From Funneliformis mosseae (Eukaryota > Glomeromycota > Glomeromycetes > Glomerales > Glomeraceae), in the NCBI GenBank assembly GCA_910592005.1, contig CAJVPP010002632.1, positions 1 through 14,070 on the forward strand: a DNA stretch of 14,070 nt, in the 5' to 3' direction. The notes below the pieces were generated by a model. It worked only from the letters and a program-made list of their open reading frames with translations. It was not told the DNA's origin and did no database searches. Shown here piece by piece: positions 3,503 through 11,713 of this stretch. The translations under genes and the position numbers were made by a program. Numbering within the stretch: position 1 is the stretch's first letter; each line of letters begins with the position of its first letter.

Positions 3503-4938
3503 CCGACGCCTTCCCCTACTTCTTTCCAAAATTTTCATCTTTGCTTTGGCATCTTCTTGAGAAACTGTTTTATAATATAATGTAGGTTTTGTAGAAGTTT
3601 TTGAGAAAAGAGTATCTAAAGATATAACCTTAACATTAGATGTAGGTTGTGATGGTGGTGCTGGAATTGGAAATTGGATCGCGGCCGCATTTCCCACTAT
3701 AATTAGTTTGAAGTAAGTTTCTAAATTTATTAAGAATAGTGTGAATACACGAGTAACAAATAACAAAATCATTACAATTGTTATTCCCGTTAAGCCTCTT
3801 ATCTCTTGCTTCGCGCGAAGCTCCGTGTCCACTTTTCGCCGATTTTTCTTCGGCTTCAACAATTAACCCCTGCGCCTGTTCGAAAGTTAAAAATTCAAGT
3901 TCGAGGGGTCTACCAGTTTCAGGCGGGAAAATCGTATGCCATAGTGATTCTCGTGCCAAAATCGCTGATTCCAATTTCTCAAACTGTTCATAAATGATAA
4001 TATCATTTATAAATTATCATGATTTATAAAAATTCAAACATTTCAATATCAATAATTTACTTAATAAATGTTTACTTTCACATAGCAATGAGACTTAATT
4101 TTATCCATCCAAAAATATTCAATCCTGCCAAATTGTTCCAACAAATTCCTAACCATAGGAATTGTCAAAGGGCGAACAAAATTTTTAACGTGAAGAGTTG
4201 AAGTTGGCTCATGTTGAGAAGGAGGAACTAAACAAAATTTAGAAAAGATTTCATTATATTAATAAAAGTTTTGAAATAATCCCTATTAATTAATATCTTA
4301 CTAGTTCGTATTTGAGCAGAGTCTATTTCTTCGTCCGTCTCAGCATCTTCTCCCTAGATAGGTCAAACATAAAAAAGTTTTAGCAGATGAAATATAGATT
4401 TTTCTCTCTCGATTATCAAATGATTAGATTTACTTTCGTCAACCTTTTGAGAAGCACCATCATAATCTTGGTTATTATTCGGCCTTCCTGTATCATCATT
4501 CTCCGTTGACGATTGAGTGACATTAAGTATATCCTAAGAGATAATAAAAAGATGTAAGGATTTTCACCGATCCATAATTAATTGGTTGATACTCGATTTA
4601 CCTTTAAACTTTCGGTTGTAATTGATTCATCGAAATCATCAATAGTGTTAATATTTTCGGTCTTTTTAGGTGGAAATGATGACGAAGCTTTTGATTCATC
4701 AACACTTTTTCGATGCGTTTTTAACACTCTTCTTGGTCTTTTTGATCCTTCATTCAATTGATTATCTACGGCTATTGTGGCCTCGGCGACTGTTGTTGAA
4801 GTATTGTCTAAATGCTCTGTTTTAACAAATCAAATTAGCAGTAAAGGTCTATTTAATTAAATTAGTCCAAGTTTTTTCGTGTTAAGACAATGAAAGGGAA
4901 TGAAAAAAAAGGTAGGGCAAACCTGCTGAATCTGGCAT
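3497..4938 (-). CDS. Acinus-like RRM protein (ASAP complex subunit)
   Basis: Acinus binds RNPS1 and SAP18 in the ASAP complex, a nuclear complex at the periphery of the exon junction complex that affects splicing. The proposed exons (minus strand, 5' to 3') are 4938-4923, 4816-4602, 4533-4444, 4353-4302, 4227-4076, 3983-3776 and 3696-3497, giving 933 nt and 310 residues. All phases agree. Residues 1-124 are polar and acidic. An RRM-like fold starts at about 135: LHVKNFVRPLT (RNP2-like), then FGRIEYFWMDKIKSHCYV (RNP1-like), which closely resembles the Acinus RRM. The end (about 270-290, SLDTLFSKTSTKPTLYYKTV) matches the RSB motif that contacts RNPS1 and SAP18, followed by a short Arg/Ser tail. 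No N-terminal SAP domain is visible, as in short Acinus forms. The junction between the third and fourth exons is uncertain: an alternative is a donor after 4434 with an acceptor before 4349, which adds two residues. The 3' end may also continue through one more intron. Confidence 0.85.
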
Positions 4939-5278
4939 TTTTTTTCAAACGCCAATAGTTTTTTTTTTTTTTTACAATATAGATCGTTTTGTCAAATAAA
5001 CTCGGAAAAAGAATAAAATAAAGAAAACGAATAGTTGGTCACCAATGACTCAGCAAAAAGGATACTTATATTTTTATAGCTAAATATAATACCCGCGTAA
5101 AATTAGTCGTTTTTTTTTATTGTCAAACGCGCGAATAATAAAACCATTTTTTTTTTGATATTCAAGATTTATGTTTGAATGTTAAACGTGACTCTAGCAT
5201 TGTACCACCATTATATAAATATGATGAATACGACAAATTTTAACGATTTTTTTTTTCACTTACAGCTATACAAACACG
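4939..5278. promoter_or_regulatory. Divergent promoter region, Acinus-like / SNRNP40
   Basis: This 340-bp interval separates the two start codons and must hold both promoters. It has several T-runs, including 11-13 T next to the Acinus start. A palindrome TTGGTCACCAA lies at 5035-5045 and overlaps a CCAAT box (5042-5046), which abuts TGACTCA (5046-5052), the consensus of Gcn4/AP-1-type bZIP factors. A TATA-like TATATAAAT lies at 5212-5220, about 60 bp before the SNRNP40 start. A pyrimidine tract ending in TTACAG just before the SNRNP40 ATG could be a 5'UTR intron acceptor. The sites are read by eye; function is inferred. Confidence 0.5.
5035..5052. promoter_or_regulatory. Composite CCAAT box and bZIP (TGACTCA) site
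   Basis: The palindrome TTGGT-C-ACCAA runs directly into CCAAT and then TGACTCA. CCAAT is the core bound by the NF-Y (HAP2/3/5) trimer, and TGACTCA is the classic binding site of Gcn4 and AP-1 family bZIP proteins. It sits about 97 bp upstream of the Acinus-like start and 227 bp upstream of the SNRNP40 start. Confidence 0.4.
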
Positions 5279-7169
5279 ATGTCAGATAAAACTCCCGAAC
5301 CAAGTTCGCAAGGCTCTGGACAACTCATCAAAAAACAGAAATTGGATCAAACAAATGCATTGACTATTACAAGTGCTGGTTCAGGATCTAATGGCGCTTT
5401 AATACAAACGGTTTGTTTTTAATTTATTTTTCAAAAATTTAAACAAGTCGGTTCTTTAACGTTATACGGTTTTTTTGTTAGATTAAACGTACGTCCGGTC
5501 TTCAAGCACCGATAATGCTGTTATCCGGACATCAGGTGTGAGGTTGTTATCTTGTTTTAAAATGCTTTTCAAAAAAAAATTTGACAAATCCTATAGCCAA
5601 TTTATCTTAAGCAACTTTGTTTTTCAGGGAGAAATATACACTGTAAGATTTAACCCTTCGGGACAACACATAGCATCTGGTTCATTTGATAGAACGATAT
5701 GTAAGCAATTACTCTAGTCTTCAATTTTGAAACCAACAGAAATAATTGATTAAAAATTTTTTTTTTTTTTAGTATTGTGGAACACATACGGTGATTGTAT
5801 TAATTATGGAGTATTAAAAGGTCATAATGGAGCCATTATGGAACTTCAATGGTCACGAGATTCTAGGTAAGTTGTTGATAAATTATAAAAGAATAAATAA
5901 ATGAATGTTATTAATCATGGATTTCATTTCTTATCTTTAGCAAGATTTTTTCATGCGCTACGGATAAAACTGTTGGCGTATGGGACGTAACAACTGGCAC
6001 AAGGATAAAAAAGTTTAAAGGTCACACATCATTTGTCAATAGTGTATCTGCTGCTCGTAGAGGAAATGAAATTCTAGTTAGCGGTAGTGATGATGGTACC
6101 ATAAGGGTGAGTTAATAATTGAAATTAACAAAATTATGTCGAAATAAGAATGATGATTAATGGCTTGATTTGAAATTTGTTTAGATATGGGATCTCCGAC
6201 AAAAACATGCCGTTGACACTTTTACTCACCAGTATCAAATAACAGCTACATGTTTTAGTGAAGCTGGAGATTTGGTGTTTGCGGGTTGTTTGGATAATGA
6301 TATTATTGTAAGTCAATTCTTATCCTTCTTTGACTTCATAGTAAGAACGCTATTTAAAAAAATGATGACGATTTCAATGTCCAATTACTGTAAGACCGTA
6401 TATCAATACATAATGGTTAAAGTTTCTTGAATATCCTGATAAATACAATTCGTGATATATTTATATATAACATTATCTTGATAATTTAATTGACCTATCA
6501 TCTTAACTGTATTAGGCTTGGGATTTAAGGAAAAAGGCTCATGCTTATGTTCTCAAAGGACATCAAGATATTATATCCGGTATAAAATTGAGTCCTGACG
6601 GATCTTATCTTTTATCCAATGCGATGGATAACACGGGTAAATTTTTACTTTGATGTACATGATTTCGAGCTATAAATATATTTCGTTTTACAATTCATTT
6701 TGCATTATCTAGTTCGAGCCTGGGATGTTAAGCCTTTTGCCCCAACCGATCGTCTTCTTAAAATTTTTGAAGGTATAATGTAAATTTTGCTTTATCTGTT
6801 TATTATTTTCCTATTTCATCAAACACTTTATCAATTGTCTTTATAAAGGTGCACCTCATAGTTTTGAGAAAAATTTAATCAAACCCGCGTGGTCATCAGA
6901 TGGCTTACAAATAGCCTCAGGAAGCGGTGATCGAACGGTTGTAATATGGGATTTCTCGAGTCGCCGGATTTTATATAAATTACCTGGTCATAAAGGTTGC
7001 GTCAACGAAGTGGATTTCCACCCTAATGAACCTATTAGTAAGTTTCTTAATTTTGTCGATTTTATTTTACATTTATCTGATGTTAAGTTATTTCTTATTA
7101 TATACAGTTGTTTCTGGAAGTACCGATCGACAAATTTTCCTAGGTGAAATTAATCCAAGTAATTTATAA
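5279..7169 (+). CDS. SNRNP40: U5 snRNP 40 kDa WD40 protein (SNRNP40 / Cwf17 / Spf38 family)
   Basis: This is a core U5 snRNP beta-propeller protein that associates with Prp8 and Brr2 in the U5 and tri-snRNP particles. Ten exons are supported: 5279-5410, 5482-5535, 5628-5700, 5773-5866, 5941-6106, 6185-6307, 6516-6636, 6713-6772, 6849-7037 and 7108-7169. They sum to 1074 nt and 357 residues, matching the usual length of the family. Every junction is GT-AG and in phase. A polar N-terminus (about 1-55) precedes seven WD repeats, visible as LLSGH...ILLWN, LKGH...VGVWD, FKGH...IRIWD, ITATCF...IIAWD, LKGH...VRAWD, FEKNL...VVIWD and LPGH...IFLGE. The signature RRILYKLPGH near the end is typical of SNRNP40. 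The start follows CAAACACG and is the first ATG before the conserved region. A possible AATAAA poly(A) signal is at 7304-7309. The gene is divergent from the Acinus-like gene and convergent with the PPR gene. Confidence 0.95.
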
Positions 7170-7368
7170 ATCGAAGTAAAAACCAATCTTCAGGATTATT
7201 CTTTTGAATTCTTTTTTTTTTTCTTTTTGAATTTTACAATTTGGAAAATTATACAATGATTAGATTATTTTAACGGGTTTGTTTACATTAGATTGTTGAG
7301 TATAATAAAAAGTAGACATTGAATTTCAACTAGCTCATAATAATATACAATATACTATTATCATCAAA

Positions 7369-7385: not shown

Positions 7386-8697
7386 TTATGAATCTCCTAT
7401 AAGTGTCTCGAAACTTTTCACCCCTCTAGGAGTATTTATGTATGTGATTTTAGATCTCATCCTGTTGGAAATTTGTTTCCTCTCGAAGTAATCTTTAAGA
7501 ATTTTAAAATTCCTGATCCAAAGGACCTTTTGTTGATCGGTCAAACCTTCATCATCTAAAGTTGATTTATAAGCGTTCAAAATCTGACCAAGCAAGTTGT
7601 TGTTATATAATTCAAAATTCTTTTCGTTTTCAATCGAAGTAATGATATCTTGTAAACCAATTTTATGTAATGAGATCAATAGCCATCTAGTTTCAAATAA
7701 AGAATGATCATTGATCCGTTTAATCTCGGCCAATTCAAATACCTTTGTTAAAATTCGTAAATCAAAAGCGAGTTTCTTTTTAAATTTCATGATATCTATA
7801 TATAATAATTTGGCCATGGACCAATTCTCATTCATCCTACAAGAAATCATGAGTAAATCATAAGTTTCCGGGGTTAAATTTAAATCTCTGATCCGAATGG
7901 AATTTATTGTTGAAATGGCCTTTTCAAATTGTTTTGATTGATTACACATGAGGATCAATTTATTAAAATTATAGATATCTAATGGTAAGTCCGGAAATTG
8001 ATTCAAGGCTTGATCAAATAACTTTATCCCCCTTTCATATTTTTTACCATCAATACATAACCCGAGTATGATGTCCAAGGTTTGAGTTGATAATTGACAG
8101 ATGTATGATGATGATGATGATGATGATGATGAAGGGTCATCATCGGATCTCAAACCATAATAATTTCCGATTATTTCAAATGCCTTCTCATAATGAAGAG
8201 ATTTCTTACAAACCAATAACATGGAACGTACAAGGTGATCATCAATCGTAACCTCACTAGGTCTCTTAACCAAATTCCACTCCAAATCTCGTTTCACCAT
8301 TTGTTGATACTCTATGGAATTAACATCGAATTGATTCCATAATTTTAATGCGATATCATACCCATCAATACCTTGCCTCGCGCAAGCATTTATCATGATC
8401 GTAAATGATTCTTGATTTGGTAACCATTTCCCCTTACTGATGAATTCATTAAAAATCTCTTTTAAGGTTTCAAAATCATCCGATCTGGAACAAACTTTAA
8501 GTAAACAATTGACATGAATCGAGTTAAGTTCCACTTGACTATGTTGGATACTTTCCAAGATGGTTCGAGCTTGTGCGACGTTATCGTTGAACGTTCGATT
8601 TTCCGCGATACCATTTAATAAGATTGTGTACGTTTGTTCATTTGGAACGAACGAACGTTTTTTCATCTAACGTACGTTTTATCAATCAATGATTAAA

Positions 8698-8731
<34 letters not shown>

Positions 8732-9113
8732 TAATAAGTTTACAAACCTCATTTAATAATCGAATTGCTAATTTAAGCTTTCCTTTCTTGACGCTGTGAT
8801 GAATCAAATGATTCCATACGACCACTGATTGCGCGCTCCTTTTCGTATTCCATACGATTGATAATACGTCCTCGAACCTACCCTCTTCGCTAAATTTATT
8901 TATCAATTTGGTTAAGTCATACGGATCATCGGGTACTTTTACTTTTGGATCGATTTTTTTAAGAGGAATTTTTAATCGACGGCATTGGGCGGTTGCCGAA
9001 AAGGTACGCACAAAAGGTGAAATCCGGGGTGTAACGTTAAGGTTGGGATTTCTGACTCGATGATTTTTGATCAAATTTTTAAGAGAAAAAATTCTCAAGG
9101 TACTGATAAACAT
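7386..9113 (-). CDS. Mitochondrial-type pentatricopeptide repeat (PPR) protein
   Basis: PPR proteins bind organellar RNA and act in processing, stability or translation of mitochondrial transcripts. Two exons, 9113-8748 and 8666-7386, join in phase 0 as ...LLNE|MKKRSFVPNE..., giving 548 residues. The 80-bp intron has a GTTTGT donor and a TTAG acceptor. The first 40-odd residues are rich in Arg, Lys, Ser, Thr and Phe with no acidic residue (ending near VRTFSATAQ), a good mitochondrial presequence. Helical 35-residue repeats are visible from about residue 64: VVWNHLIHHSVKKGKLKLAI, then TYTILLNGIAE, VNCLLKVCSRSDDFETLKEI, FTIMINACARQ..., and later LDIILGLCIDGKKYERGIKL and YNFNKLILMCNQSKQFEKAI, TYDLLMISCRM. 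A run of about nine Ser near 8103-8131 is encoded by a TCA-type microsatellite. The exact orthologue (for example Ccm1/Dmr1- or Pet309/Cya5-type) cannot be decided by eye. Confidence 0.88.
8103..8131 (-). repeat. ATG/TCA trinucleotide microsatellite encoding a Ser run
   Basis: About nine GAT/ATG units on the plus strand read as TCA/TCATCATC on the minus strand and encode consecutive Ser residues between two PPR helices (after DDDPS). The tract lies in a predicted loop, so length changes would be tolerated. Confidence 0.8.
8698..8731. repeat. T19-A15 inverted homopolymer inside the PPR intron
   Basis: Nineteen T are followed directly by fifteen A, a perfect foldback, within the 80-bp intron of the PPR gene (8667-8747). 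The lengths are prone to sequencing and replication slippage. The coding frame does not depend on them because both lie in the intron. Confidence 0.85.
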
Positions 9114-9697
9114 TATATCAGAGGAATGAAAGAAATTATTATTATTATTATTTTTTATTTTTTTTTATAAAAAAAAGAAATTTTCGTATGATCATCGGAT
9201 ATGTCAGTAATTATTCCGCGGAATTCATAACACGTTCGTTTAATCTAATTGCCTTGTAACGTTTTCTTTTTCCTACGGGAAATTTAATGCGTGGTTTTAT
9301 TTGCATTAATGTTTATTATTTGTTTGACAATTAAATAATAATAAATAAAATAATGTTTCAAAGAATGTATCCATGTCAGAAACTCAATGCACTCTAATTG
9401 TATTACTAATAAATAAACATTAATATTCGACAAAATATTAATATATAATTCAAATTATTATAAATTCTTTGTCTATTAGGTTTAAGATCACTCATCCAAG
9501 CCTTTTAAAAAAAAATAATAATAAAAACTTTCCTATTAATATCGTGTATTTATAAAAGAAAATTAAAAACTCTATATTTTTTTATCCAATCACTGAAAAT
9601 CGGCATCGAAATTAAAAAGAAAAACAAAAAAATAAAAAAAAAAGATATATGCATATATATCAAGTGAAATAAACAATTAAATGATAGTGATAATTAA
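9114..9697. other. Intergenic region between PPR and NF-YB genes
   Basis: This 584-bp AT-rich interval contains the PPR promoter and the NF-YB 3' end, both on the minus strand. It has ATT trinucleotide and T-run tracts just upstream of the PPR start (about 9137-9175), a less AT-rich patch at about 9200-9290, and a near-palindromic GATATATGCATATATATC at 9643-9660. No open frame or RNA gene is recognised. Confidence 0.6.
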
Positions 9698-10473
9698 TTA
9701 ACTTTGATTGTTATCACCGAGATAACTTTGATGCGGCGGCACTATTATGCAAGGTTGACGAGGTTAGTGTATGACCAATACGAATATCCTTATTTATGAA
9801 GAGATTTACCTGGATAGTAAGACGCATGTTGAGGTGGCTGTGATGAATATATATCATCATCATCATTCCCATCATCATCTTTATCTTTAGAATTTGCTGA
9901 GCGTTCAATCTTTGTAGTCTATTAAATTTAACAAATTTGCATAAATTCAATTCAATCTTAATGACATTGATATCGATAAAATCTGATCAATTTAAATGAT
10001 CCGAAAATATTTCTCTTACCTCTCGATACTTTGCCAAGTAGATCTTTAGTGCCTCCGCATAATTTTCAAATCCTAAAGACTGCATCGCCCATAAAATATC
10101 TTCCCCGTTAATGGTTTTTCTTTTTTCTTGCTGACAACGATCACTTGCCGTACGAATAAAAAATTTATAGGTCAAGGAAAAAGATACGATATTGTCTTCA
10201 AAATTTATAACGTGTTTTACAAATTTTTTTTTTCGCAAAAAAAAAAAAAAATAATAATAATAATAAAGGATATTCGCTTGTTATAAATGAAATGAATTCG
10301 GAAACACACTCTTGTACGCATTCTTTGGCTTCTTTCGCTATTTTTGCGTTTTCTGGTAAAGCGCGTTTCATTATACGCGCGACATTTGCTATCGGAAGGA
10401 ATCGATCCTGTTCTTTAAAATCTTCGATATCATCGTCTCCGGATGGGTGTGCTCCTCCTTCGGATACGGACAT
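9698..10473 (-). CDS. HAP3: CCAAT-binding factor subunit B (NF-YB / HAP3 / CBF-A)
   Basis: NF-YB pairs with NF-YC through histone folds and with NF-YA forms the trimer that binds CCAAT boxes. The exons are 10473-10274, 10149-10020, 9918-9810 and 9741-9698, 483 nt in all, encoding 160 residues. A short acidic N-terminus precedes the near-invariant core from about residue 22: [58 protein letters not shown], then [19 protein letters not shown]. All are hallmark NF-YB histone-fold and DNA-contact segments. The C-terminal 50 residues are Asp-rich, then Pro/Gln/Tyr-rich, ending GDNNQS. Introns 2 (9919-10019) and 3 (9742-9809) are ordinary GT-AG introns. Intron 1 is an AT-AC intron of the U12 class and is phase 2, inside the Glu codon of ITSEAS. 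The context CTCACC before the ATG is favourable. CCAAT boxes upstream suggest autoregulation. Confidence 0.95.
10150..10273 (-). other. U12-type AT-AC spliceosomal intron (NF-YB intron 1)
   Basis: On the minus strand this 124-nt intron starts ATATCCTT at 10273-10266, the full U12-type 5' splice site consensus. TTCCTTGAC at 10179-10171 matches the U12 branch-point consensus (TTCCTTRAC), with 22 nt between the likely branch A and the exon. It ends GTAC, with AC at 10151-10150. Joining ...ACAAGCGA to GGCAAGTGAT gives T-S-E-A-S-D, exactly the conserved NF-YB core. No GT lies near the exon end, so a major-class intron cannot produce this product. Between donor and branch point are a TTA/ATA trinucleotide tract and a T/A foldback. 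Confidence 0.9.
10224..10267. repeat. Homopolymer foldback and ATA microsatellite inside the U12-type intron
   Basis: Ten T (10224-10233), CGC, then fifteen A (10237-10251) can fold into a 10-bp stem with a three-base loop. An AAT trinucleotide tract follows to 10267, ending beside the 5' splice site. The fold would bring donor and branch point closer; whether it matters is unknown. Confidence 0.7.
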
Positions 10474-10750
10474 GGTGAGATTTAAGATTTAAGCCTTTGT
10501 AATAAAAACAATTTTCTCAAAGACTTGAAAACGCGGCGTATTTAAAGCTGTAATACTAATATTGGTTAAGTAGTTGTGGTACTCGTGGTAGGCAAGAAGT
10601 TCAACACTGTATACTTTTTAATGAAAAAATTCCGGTGAGTAAAAATTCGGAGATTTTATAGTTGATGTGATTGGCTACAATGATGCTCACGTTAAAAAAA
10701 CGGCTATTAAAATCATATGATCCTTTGCGTAATTATTTGATGGTTAAAAT
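10474..10750. promoter_or_regulatory. Divergent promoter region, NF-YB / LRR gene, with CCAAT boxes
   Basis: This 277-bp interval separates the NF-YB start (minus) from the LRR gene start (plus). CCAAT boxes in reverse orientation (ATTGG on the plus strand) lie at 10561-10565 and 10670-10674. The second, TGATTGGCT, is a good match to the extended NF-Y site. A TATA-like TATTTAAA is at 10539-10546, about 65 bp upstream of the NF-YB start. The boxes are about 90 and 200 bp upstream of the NF-YB ATG. Confidence 0.5.
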
Positions 10751-11713
10751 ATGACAAAAGCCCAAGAATGGCTAAATGCCAATGTTCCAAATATAAATCA
10801 AAGAGGCCAAATAGTTCAATTGACTATATATCAGGCTGCAGGAACAAGTGTCAACCAAAACAATGTATTTACATTTTATAACTCAAATTTGGAAGACGAA
10901 TTAAATTTGAATGAATTTGTGAATTTGCAACGATTATTTATTCAAGGTAGCAACCAAAATCAAAGGCAAGCTTTAACTGGCTTGAAGGTCAATAAATGCT
11001 TGAAATTAAATTATATACAAATTGTGTTCACTAATCTAAGTGAATTAGATTTTGAGAAAAATTCAGCGTTACAGACTTTGTATTGTCATCAAAATCAACT
11101 TGTTAATTTGAACTTGGGGGGTAATCCAGCTCTCCAAACCTTGAATTGTTGTAATAACAAATTTACAAGTCTTAATTTAAGTAATGCTCCTGCTATTACG
11201 ACTTTAAATTGTCAATTTAATCAATTAAATAGTTTGGATTTAAGTAAGAACACCAAATTAGTAAATCTTATTAAGGATGCTAGGACTGATCTTTACACTA
11301 CGTTTTTGGGTAATTTAAATGATACAATGGAAGAGTTGAAAAAGGAAAAGGAACAAGCACAACGCCAATTGAAAAGATTAATTGACATAATCAAACCTAA
11401 TAACAGTTTTGCCAATACTAGTTTAAAAGGCGAAGTGGAAAAAATTGAAGAGGAAAATCTTACTCAGAAATTGGAAAATAAGAAGAGGGAACTAGAAAAA
11501 TTAATTGGCGACGCAAAAAAGGATCTTAATGAAGATCTACGGGAGTGGTTAGAAACTATCCTAGAAGCTCAATTAGAAATTCTAAAAACTAATAATCCCT
11601 TTGCTCAAAAGCAATCGGAAAAGGCTGAGAGAATATTAACTAGAACATTACCTGCTGAAGTATTGAAGAACCTTCTTGATAAACAAAAAGAAGTCAAATC
11701 ACTAAGTGAATAG
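10751..11713 (+). CDS. Leucine-rich-repeat and coiled-coil protein, probably truncated
   Basis: This intronless frame encodes 320 residues. The start is fixed by an in-frame stop just upstream (TAA at 10745). Residues 1-20 (KAQEWLN...NQRGQI) are followed by an LRR domain at about 58-175. Its clearest repeats have a 21-residue period: LDFEKNSALQTLYCHQNQL, LNLGGNPALQTLNCCNNKF, LNLSNAPAITTLNCQFNQL, then LDLSKNTKL. The L-x-C-x-x-N-x-L pattern is common in bacterial LRR proteins, including Mollicutes, and in expanded families of arbuscular mycorrhizal fungi. Residues about 185-320 are Lys/Glu/Leu-rich coiled coil, with an internal echo about 64 residues apart (IIKPNNSFA near 213 and ILKTNNPFA near 277). 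No signal peptide or membrane segment is seen. The function is unknown. Coding-like sequence continues in another frame after the stop, so the gene may be a frameshifted pseudogene. Confidence 0.7.
   Translation: MTKAQEWLNANVPNINQRGQIVQLTIYQAAGTSVNQNNVFTFYNSNLEDELNLNEFVNLQRLFIQGSNQNQRQALTGLKVNKCLKLNYIQIVFTNLSELDFEKNSALQTLYCHQNQLVNLNLGGNPALQTLNCCNNKFTSLNLSNAPAITTLNCQFNQLNSLDLSKNTKLVNLIKDARTDLYTTFLGNLNDTMEELKKEKEQAQRQLKRLIDIIKPNNSFANTSLKGEVEKIEEENLTQKLENKKRELEKLIGDAKKDLNEDLREWLETILEAQLEILKTNNPFAQKQSEKAERILTRTLPAEVLKNLLDKQKEVKSLSE

Follow-up and report, generated by a model that had tools for sequence, protein, structure and literature searches.

An interval at positions 10150..10273 on the minus strand of the analysed DNA of Funneliformis (the whole stretch of 14,070 nt, hereafter the window) is almost certainly a genuine U12-type AT-AC intron of the NF-YB/HAP3 gene, one that would be removed by the minor spliceosome. 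It had been proposed by a previous sequence-only reading, whose coordinates, strand, donor, branch site and terminal AC all proved exact (Table 1). The four exons of the gene join into a coding sequence of 483 nt without an internal stop, yielding a protein of 160 residues, i.e. of the same length as that of R. irregularis (P0001). Both the Pfam profile PF00808 (100.8 bits, E = 5.2e-29) and the structure of HapC (PDB 4g91_B; E = 1.3e-49), the latter aligned without gaps over residues 20-110 and thus across the junction of intron 1, mark the joined protein as having an NF-YB-type histone fold, in agreement with the identity given by the earlier reading. The host was likewise rightly taken as fungal, the nearest matches listed for both NF-YB and the adjoining PPR protein being records of Glomeromycotina; the closest NF-YB records among the matches listed are those from R. 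irregularis and G. margarita.

Table 1 Features of the NF-YB/HAP3 gene in the window and joins predicted at further U12-type candidates elsewhere in the genome
Feature	Position	Strand	Description
NF-YB exon 1, coding part	10274..10473	minus	200 nt
NF-YB intron 1, U12-type AT-AC	10150..10273	minus	124 nt, phase 2
U12-type 5' splice site	10266..10273	minus	ATATCCTT; fits RTATCCTT; can pair with U11 5' end and U6atac AAAGGA
U12-type branch site	10171..10179	minus	TTCCTTGAC; branch A at 10172; exact TTCCTTRAC; can pair with U12
3' splice site	10150..10151	minus	AC, terminal dinucleotide of intron 1
NF-YB exon 2	10020..10149	minus	130 nt
NF-YB intron 2	9919..10019	minus	101 nt, GT-AG
NF-YB exon 3	9810..9918	minus	109 nt
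NF-YB intron 3	9742..9809	minus	68 nt, GT-AG
NF-YB exon 4, including stop codon	9698..9741	minus	44 nt
L014, UBC-fold gene			AT-AC; domain match across junction, 6.7e-10
L022, COA3			GT-AG; domain match across junction, 9e-17
L023, Nup85			GT-AG; domain match across junction, 2.4e-14
L025, ChAPs			AT-AC; domain match across junction, 1.2e-14
L026, DNA-PKcs-like	G000:C517:19703-19755		GT-AG; PF19704 match across junction, 4.7e-14
L027, adaptin			GT-AG; domain match across junction, 5.5e-49
L012	G000:C1849:10702-10785		AT-AC candidate; weak EF-hand 0.0012, Ion_trans 0.046
L016			NTP_transferase 5.6e-5, weak; match ends at junction
L017			HEAT_EF3_N 7.4e-5, weak; below curated cut-off
L018			Cullin 0.0011, weak; below curated cut-off

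The decisive evidence for the intron, stronger than any counting of motifs, is the restoration of the reading frame. Pairs of cuts were scanned with donors up to 60 nt from the end of exon 1 and acceptors 20-200 nt downstream, and the conserved NF-YB core of 31 residues was rebuilt by only two of the pairs tried, AT-AC and TA-CG, the latter lying one base after the former and being without a U12 motif. None of the 12 in-frame GT-AG or GC-AG joins enumerated in the scanned range restores the conserved core, so that the claim that removal of precisely this interval rebuilds it stands.

Concerning the motifs themselves, a single exact copy of the branch motif is present in the window; this copy, TTCCTTGAC, is followed by the last 21 nt of intron 1. 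The distance from the branch A to the last base of the intron is 22 nt, which is at the long end of the range for U12-type introns, the corresponding distances in the other favoured candidate U12 joins of this genome being 11, 14, 19 and 14 nt; between the branch A and the intron end there is no AC or AG other than the AC of the branch motif itself. The donor RTATCCTT is present three times in the window against a mean of 1.61 in shuffled sequences and, since three or more copies are reached in 44 of 200 shuffles, the donor alone carries little weight. The strict combination of donor, branch site and AC/AG, looked for on both strands, has one occurrence in the actual sequence and arose in 7 of 2000 windows generated by a first-order Markov model. 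Two strict donors were rejected: GTATCCTT at 5065-5058 of the minus strand, upstream of an acinus-like gene, was dropped, the window having no exact branch site to go with it; a copy of ATATCCTT at 9784-9791 of the plus strand, antisense to NF-YB intron 3, was taken as a chance occurrence.

It is very improbable that the gene is spliced as in the deposited Funneliformis models, in which 10309-10144 is removed as a GT-AG intron; the histone fold of the resulting NF-YB would be shortened. The join is in frame and its product, ECVQDDRCQQEK, is present exactly in the records from F. caledonium and F. geosporum (P0163 and P0164), the models of which continue into the adjoining PPR gene; it replaces, however, 15 core residues by a single one at a junction for which 136 of the 162 different NF-YB-like proteins among the matches listed show the canonical motif. 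Against it speaks also the probable origin of these models, since predictors such as GeneMark-ES expect GT-AG introns. That program was used for the annotation of Glomeromycota genomes, according to the text of PMC10512289, the study from which both records, judged by their names, appear to come. In the rDNA trees of the same source, an isolate named F. caledonius UK204 groups with F. mosseae; the deposited F. caledonium record, which agrees with the window at 98% over its first 55 residues and at 100% over the next 42, presumably derives from that isolate.

The two models thus bear out the expectation that predictors confined to GT-AG introns would mis-annotate the gene, and they are accompanied by others. 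At the NF-YB junction, the R. clarus record carries an altered sequence (a string of 19 residues), that of G. rosea reads ITSEYPFITDRC and that of R. diaphanus (P0023) reads EFISDRC with residues dropped (EFI|SDRC); no such defect is seen in the records of R. irregularis and G. margarita, which keep EASDRC. In all, five of the seven named Glomeromycotina NF-YB records among the matches listed are wrong at this place. Residues are dropped at the same junction also in two records from Rhizopus microsporus (P0104 and P0107; ITT|SDRC), two others from that species (P0015 and P0019) being intact. The residue-dropping models P0104, P0107 and P0023 may be read as another sign of a poorly predicted intron there.

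Just as improbable is a cut of intron 1 as AT-AG, with the AG at 10145-10144, by which ITSDDRC would be made instead of ITSEASDRC. Such a join is in frame, and other termini are on record for minor introns, according to the main text of PMC10639083, but it loses core residues, demands a distance of 28 nt from the branch A to the AG with the nearer AC being skipped, and is at odds with the EASDRC retained in the models of R. irregularis and G. margarita. Least probable of all is that the insert is no intron, the gene being either a pseudogene or wrongly assembled, which is contradicted by four open and conserved NF-YB exons, by there being no other NF-YB-like gene among the PF00808 matches and by the remnants of the donor that other species show at this codon.

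A removal of the AT-AC intron by the minor spliceosome is in line with the components of that machinery present in the same genome. The searches covered the whole genome (82 Mb in 4154 contigs), together with 14 control genomes for each snRNA. One match each was obtained for U12 (71.5 bits; Rfam cut-off 53), U6atac (80.1 bits; cut-off 33), U11 (74.7 bits; cut-off 39) and U4atac (48.5 bits, E = 1.1e-5; below the cut-off of 53), no match being found for any of them in the 14 control genomes. The U4atac match was accepted despite its score because it pairs with the U6atac of this genome better than all 500 shuffles (-41.7 kcal/mol versus -26.1 ± 4.1 kcal/mol, the best shuffle reaching -38.4 kcal/mol). 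Among the proteins, a homologue of U11-48K is located on contig C927 (locus L015), exhibiting a CHHC-type zinc finger (PF05253, 34 bits), a profile that is not specific for U11-48K and matched also the archaeal control Sulfolobus acidocaldarius; the open frames of this locus, joined by hand, match the U11/U12 48K protein of PDB 8r7n_F (E = 2.2e-10), including RDYKRRR..YRAKN. The profiles of SNRNP25 (25K, PF18036) and PDCD7 (59K, PF16021) gave no match in the genome and none in the controls either. The sequence-only reading, which had held that the organism should possess an active minor spliceosome and had named these snRNAs and the 48K protein as the components to be looked for, is thus supported as far as sequence evidence goes, three of the snRNAs being above the cut-off and U4atac just under it.

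In the textbook scheme of minor splicing, U11 recognises the donor, U12 pairs with the branch site and U6atac replaces U11 at the donor. The pairings computed with the snRNAs of this genome agree with that scheme: the U11 5' end pairs with nine bases of the intron 1 donor (-9.1 kcal/mol), the AAAGGA of U6atac pairs with the donor (-6.4 kcal/mol), and the GTAAGGA of U12 pairs with the branch site at -9.4 kcal/mol if the branch A is omitted from the strand or, more weakly, at -6.2 kcal/mol if it remains there. In the NF-YB transcript, U11 together with the 48K protein would recognise ATATCCTT, U12 would pair with TTCCTTGAC while leaving the branch A bulged, U6atac would take over the donor from U11, and cleavage behind the AC at 10150 would finally allow exons 1 and 2 to be joined. 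From the sequence features described, we infer that the NF-YB RNA is spliced at 10274/10149.

If intron 1 were retained, a product of 91 residues would result, all residues after ITSE being intron-encoded. No second NF-YB-like gene was found among the PF00808 matches in the genome, the others being a DR1-like gene and histones H2B and H2A, as identified by eye. In view of the short retention product and the lack of another such gene among these matches, minor splicing is most likely required for the output of NF-YB, by which a core transcription-factor subunit, apparently encoded in a single copy, would be put under the control of that process.

The genome carries also further predicted U12-type introns, both AT-AC and GT-AG, lying across conserved domains (Table 1). 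A copy of ATATCCTT followed by TTCCTTRAC at a distance of 60-90 nt was found five times in the genome, NF-YB included, versus three times in the reversed control, i.e. with hardly an excess. All five sites permit an open AT-AC join; since some open AC join is permitted by 2004 of 6000 random sites, this is weak evidence by itself. The strict pattern of RTATCCTT followed by the branch site at 25-55 nt yielded 16 matches (nine starting with A and seven with G) versus five in the reversed control. Proteins joined at all five wide-gap sites and at 10 of the 16 narrow-gap ones were compared with Pfam, each join having been chosen by eye among several possible per site; the narrow-gap sites left out were L019, L020, L021, L024, L030 and L031, two of which (L024 and L031) appear non-coding by eye. 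Besides NF-YB, the outcome was strong across the junction in six cases, weak in four and negative in four, the last being the joined proteins of L010 and L011 from the wide-gap set and of L028 and L029 from the narrow-gap set, without any Pfam match. The adaptin join (L027) can be aligned with AP-1 gamma straight through the junction, no gap being needed there. It may be added that the gene hosting L012, although its domain matches are weak, resembles to the eye a voltage-gated calcium channel of the Cch1 type.

The comparison with NF-YB proteins of other fungi and of animals, which had also been proposed, bears on the age of the intron. It relies on the insertion TSEYP at the junction, which we take to be a readthrough of GA into RTATCC, i.e. 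a translated U12 donor. In an unbiased search with the spliced protein, four insertions at the junction were seen among the best 120 of 7707 homologues, all of them TSEYP, in records from G. rosea, R. clarus, Apophysomyces ossiformis and Dichotomocladium elegans. A second search (best 120 of 4234), seeded with a TSEYP protein and therefore enriched by design, added Gongronella butleri, Absidia glauca, a second protein of Dichotomocladium, Fennellomyces, Circinella minor, Syncephalis, Thamnocephalis, Elysia marginata, Caerostris darwini (two records) and two unnamed records; the labels Mucorales and Zoopagomycota for the fungi concerned, as well as those of mollusc for Elysia and spider for Caerostris, are our own assignments. 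Both searches taken together, TSEYP is present in 16 of the 162 different proteins among the matches listed, 136 being canonical, which fits either the absence of the intron or its correct removal. Syncephalis pseudoplumigaleata has one record of each kind (canonical P0046 and TSEYP-containing P0126). The residue following TSEYP is F, L, C or S in all 16 cases, each of which allows a codon starting with T, as required by RTATCCNT, the TSEYP codons being unable to separate A from G as the first base of the intron. The record P0130 reads through the whole insert, its residues allowing a donor at the right place as well as TTCCTTRAC; by hand count, the insert would have 72 nt, with the branch A 10 nt before its end, which is formed by the AC of a threonine codon, and would be in the same phase. 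As 285 of 5000 shuffles of this insert are also able to encode the branch motif somewhere, P0130 is suggestive only.

Since other early-diverging fungi and two animals, the mollusc and the spider, show the translated U12 donor at this very codon, the position is probably ancestral, which suggests that NF-YB intron 1 is an ancient U12-type intron. In addition, P0148, P0140 and P0152 have SEY..R|A(S/C)DRC, as would be expected from GA|GTAT...AG|GGC, i.e. from a GT-AG intron in the identical position, the first base of which might also be A, and P0125, P0142 and P0157 read SEG(N/E)...(I/L)|ASDRC, which fits GARG|GTRA...TAG|C, i.e. a GT-AG intron 2 nt downstream. For both sets, which are environmental protein rows interpreted by hand, a conversion from a minor to a GT-AG intron is possible. 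The chances seem evenly balanced that the minor intron predates the split of fungi and animals, that GA|RTATCCTT in phase 2 has been kept in Glomeromycotina, Mucorales, Zoopagomycota, the mollusc and the spider, and that elsewhere it has been converted to GT-AG, either in place or with a shift of 2 nt downstream, the gene being repeatedly mis-annotated. If true, one conserved junction would record both the retention of a minor intron and its conversion to a major one across opisthokonts, and the supply of NF-Y would be gated by minor splicing in the fungi keeping the intron.

As far as the surroundings of the gene are concerned, NF-YB and a PPR gene, which together occupy 7386-10473 of the window (minus strand), are neighbours, the latter matching Funneliformis caledonium at 73% and F. 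geosporum at 75% among the matches listed. By these records, and by the agreement of the F. caledonium one with the window, the host is a Funneliformis or stands very close to that genus. This adjacency looks conserved, since the NF-YB and PPR records of R. clarus have consecutive locus numbers (RclHR1_01100020 and 01100021). The acinus-like gene (approximately 3650-4830, minus strand) has a sole match, PDB 6g6s_A (Apoptotic chromatin condensation inducer; E = 5.9e-12). A WD40 gene (5228-7170, plus strand) matches, with two joined exons, the U5-40K chains 6qdv_N and 3jcr_D over the full length in one stretch, these chains ranking just behind repeat proteins that match multiply; it may encode the U5 snRNP 40K protein. 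Counting the acinus-like gene, two putative splicing-related genes lie close to the minor-intron NF-YB. Finally, an uninterrupted frame of 321 residues (10748-11713, plus strand) exhibits leucine-rich repeats, with LRR_4 below the cut-off, and a coiled-coil-like tail.

Minor introns in Glomeromycotina are of a known kind, the main text on Rhizophagus irregularis reporting 205 predicted ones along with all four minor snRNAs (Larue et al. 2023, PMC10639083). Among open-licence full texts, as distinct from supplements and databases, this is the only paper found on U12-type introns in an arbuscular mycorrhizal context, and no mention of a minor intron in NF-YB was found among the papers listed; 'NF-Y' is absent from its main text, as are 'CCAAT' and 'HAP3' from the main text of PMC2846911. 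The orthologous NF-YB intron may already be listed in the supplements or database of PMC10639083. As far as searched, the five wrong records out of seven named Glomeromycotina ones among the matches listed and the comparative history of the junction appear to be new. The present results place the minor spliceosome in another genus of Glomeromycotina besides the published Rhizophagus and illustrate a concrete cost of annotation restricted to GT-AG, i.e. mycorrhizal NF-YB records with a missing or distorted histone fold, two of which run into the neighbouring gene. The NF-YB junction may, moreover, serve as a handy marker for the retention or conversion of minor introns across fungi and animals and as a simple RT-PCR readout of fungal minor splicing.

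With R. irregularis, as described in the main text of PMC10639083, the present case shares the fungal group, the grammar of donor and branch site, the four snRNAs and minor-spliceosome proteins, represented here by U11-48K; it differs in that the host is Funneliformis and the intron position has been followed across phyla. AT-AC and GT-AG minor introns occur likewise together in two other early-diverging fungi, Rhizopus oryzae and Phycomyces blakesleeanus, few introns having been found there; for the latter, Table 2 of Bartschat and Samuelsson (2010, PMC2846911) gives, by two methods, 9 or 8 AT-AC versus 8 or 12 GT-AG minor introns. Within the HapC/NF-YB/HAP3 family, the gene of the window conforms in its histone-fold core, which aligns gapless to HapC, but departs from the plain family description in that the coding sequence of this fold is split by a minor intron.
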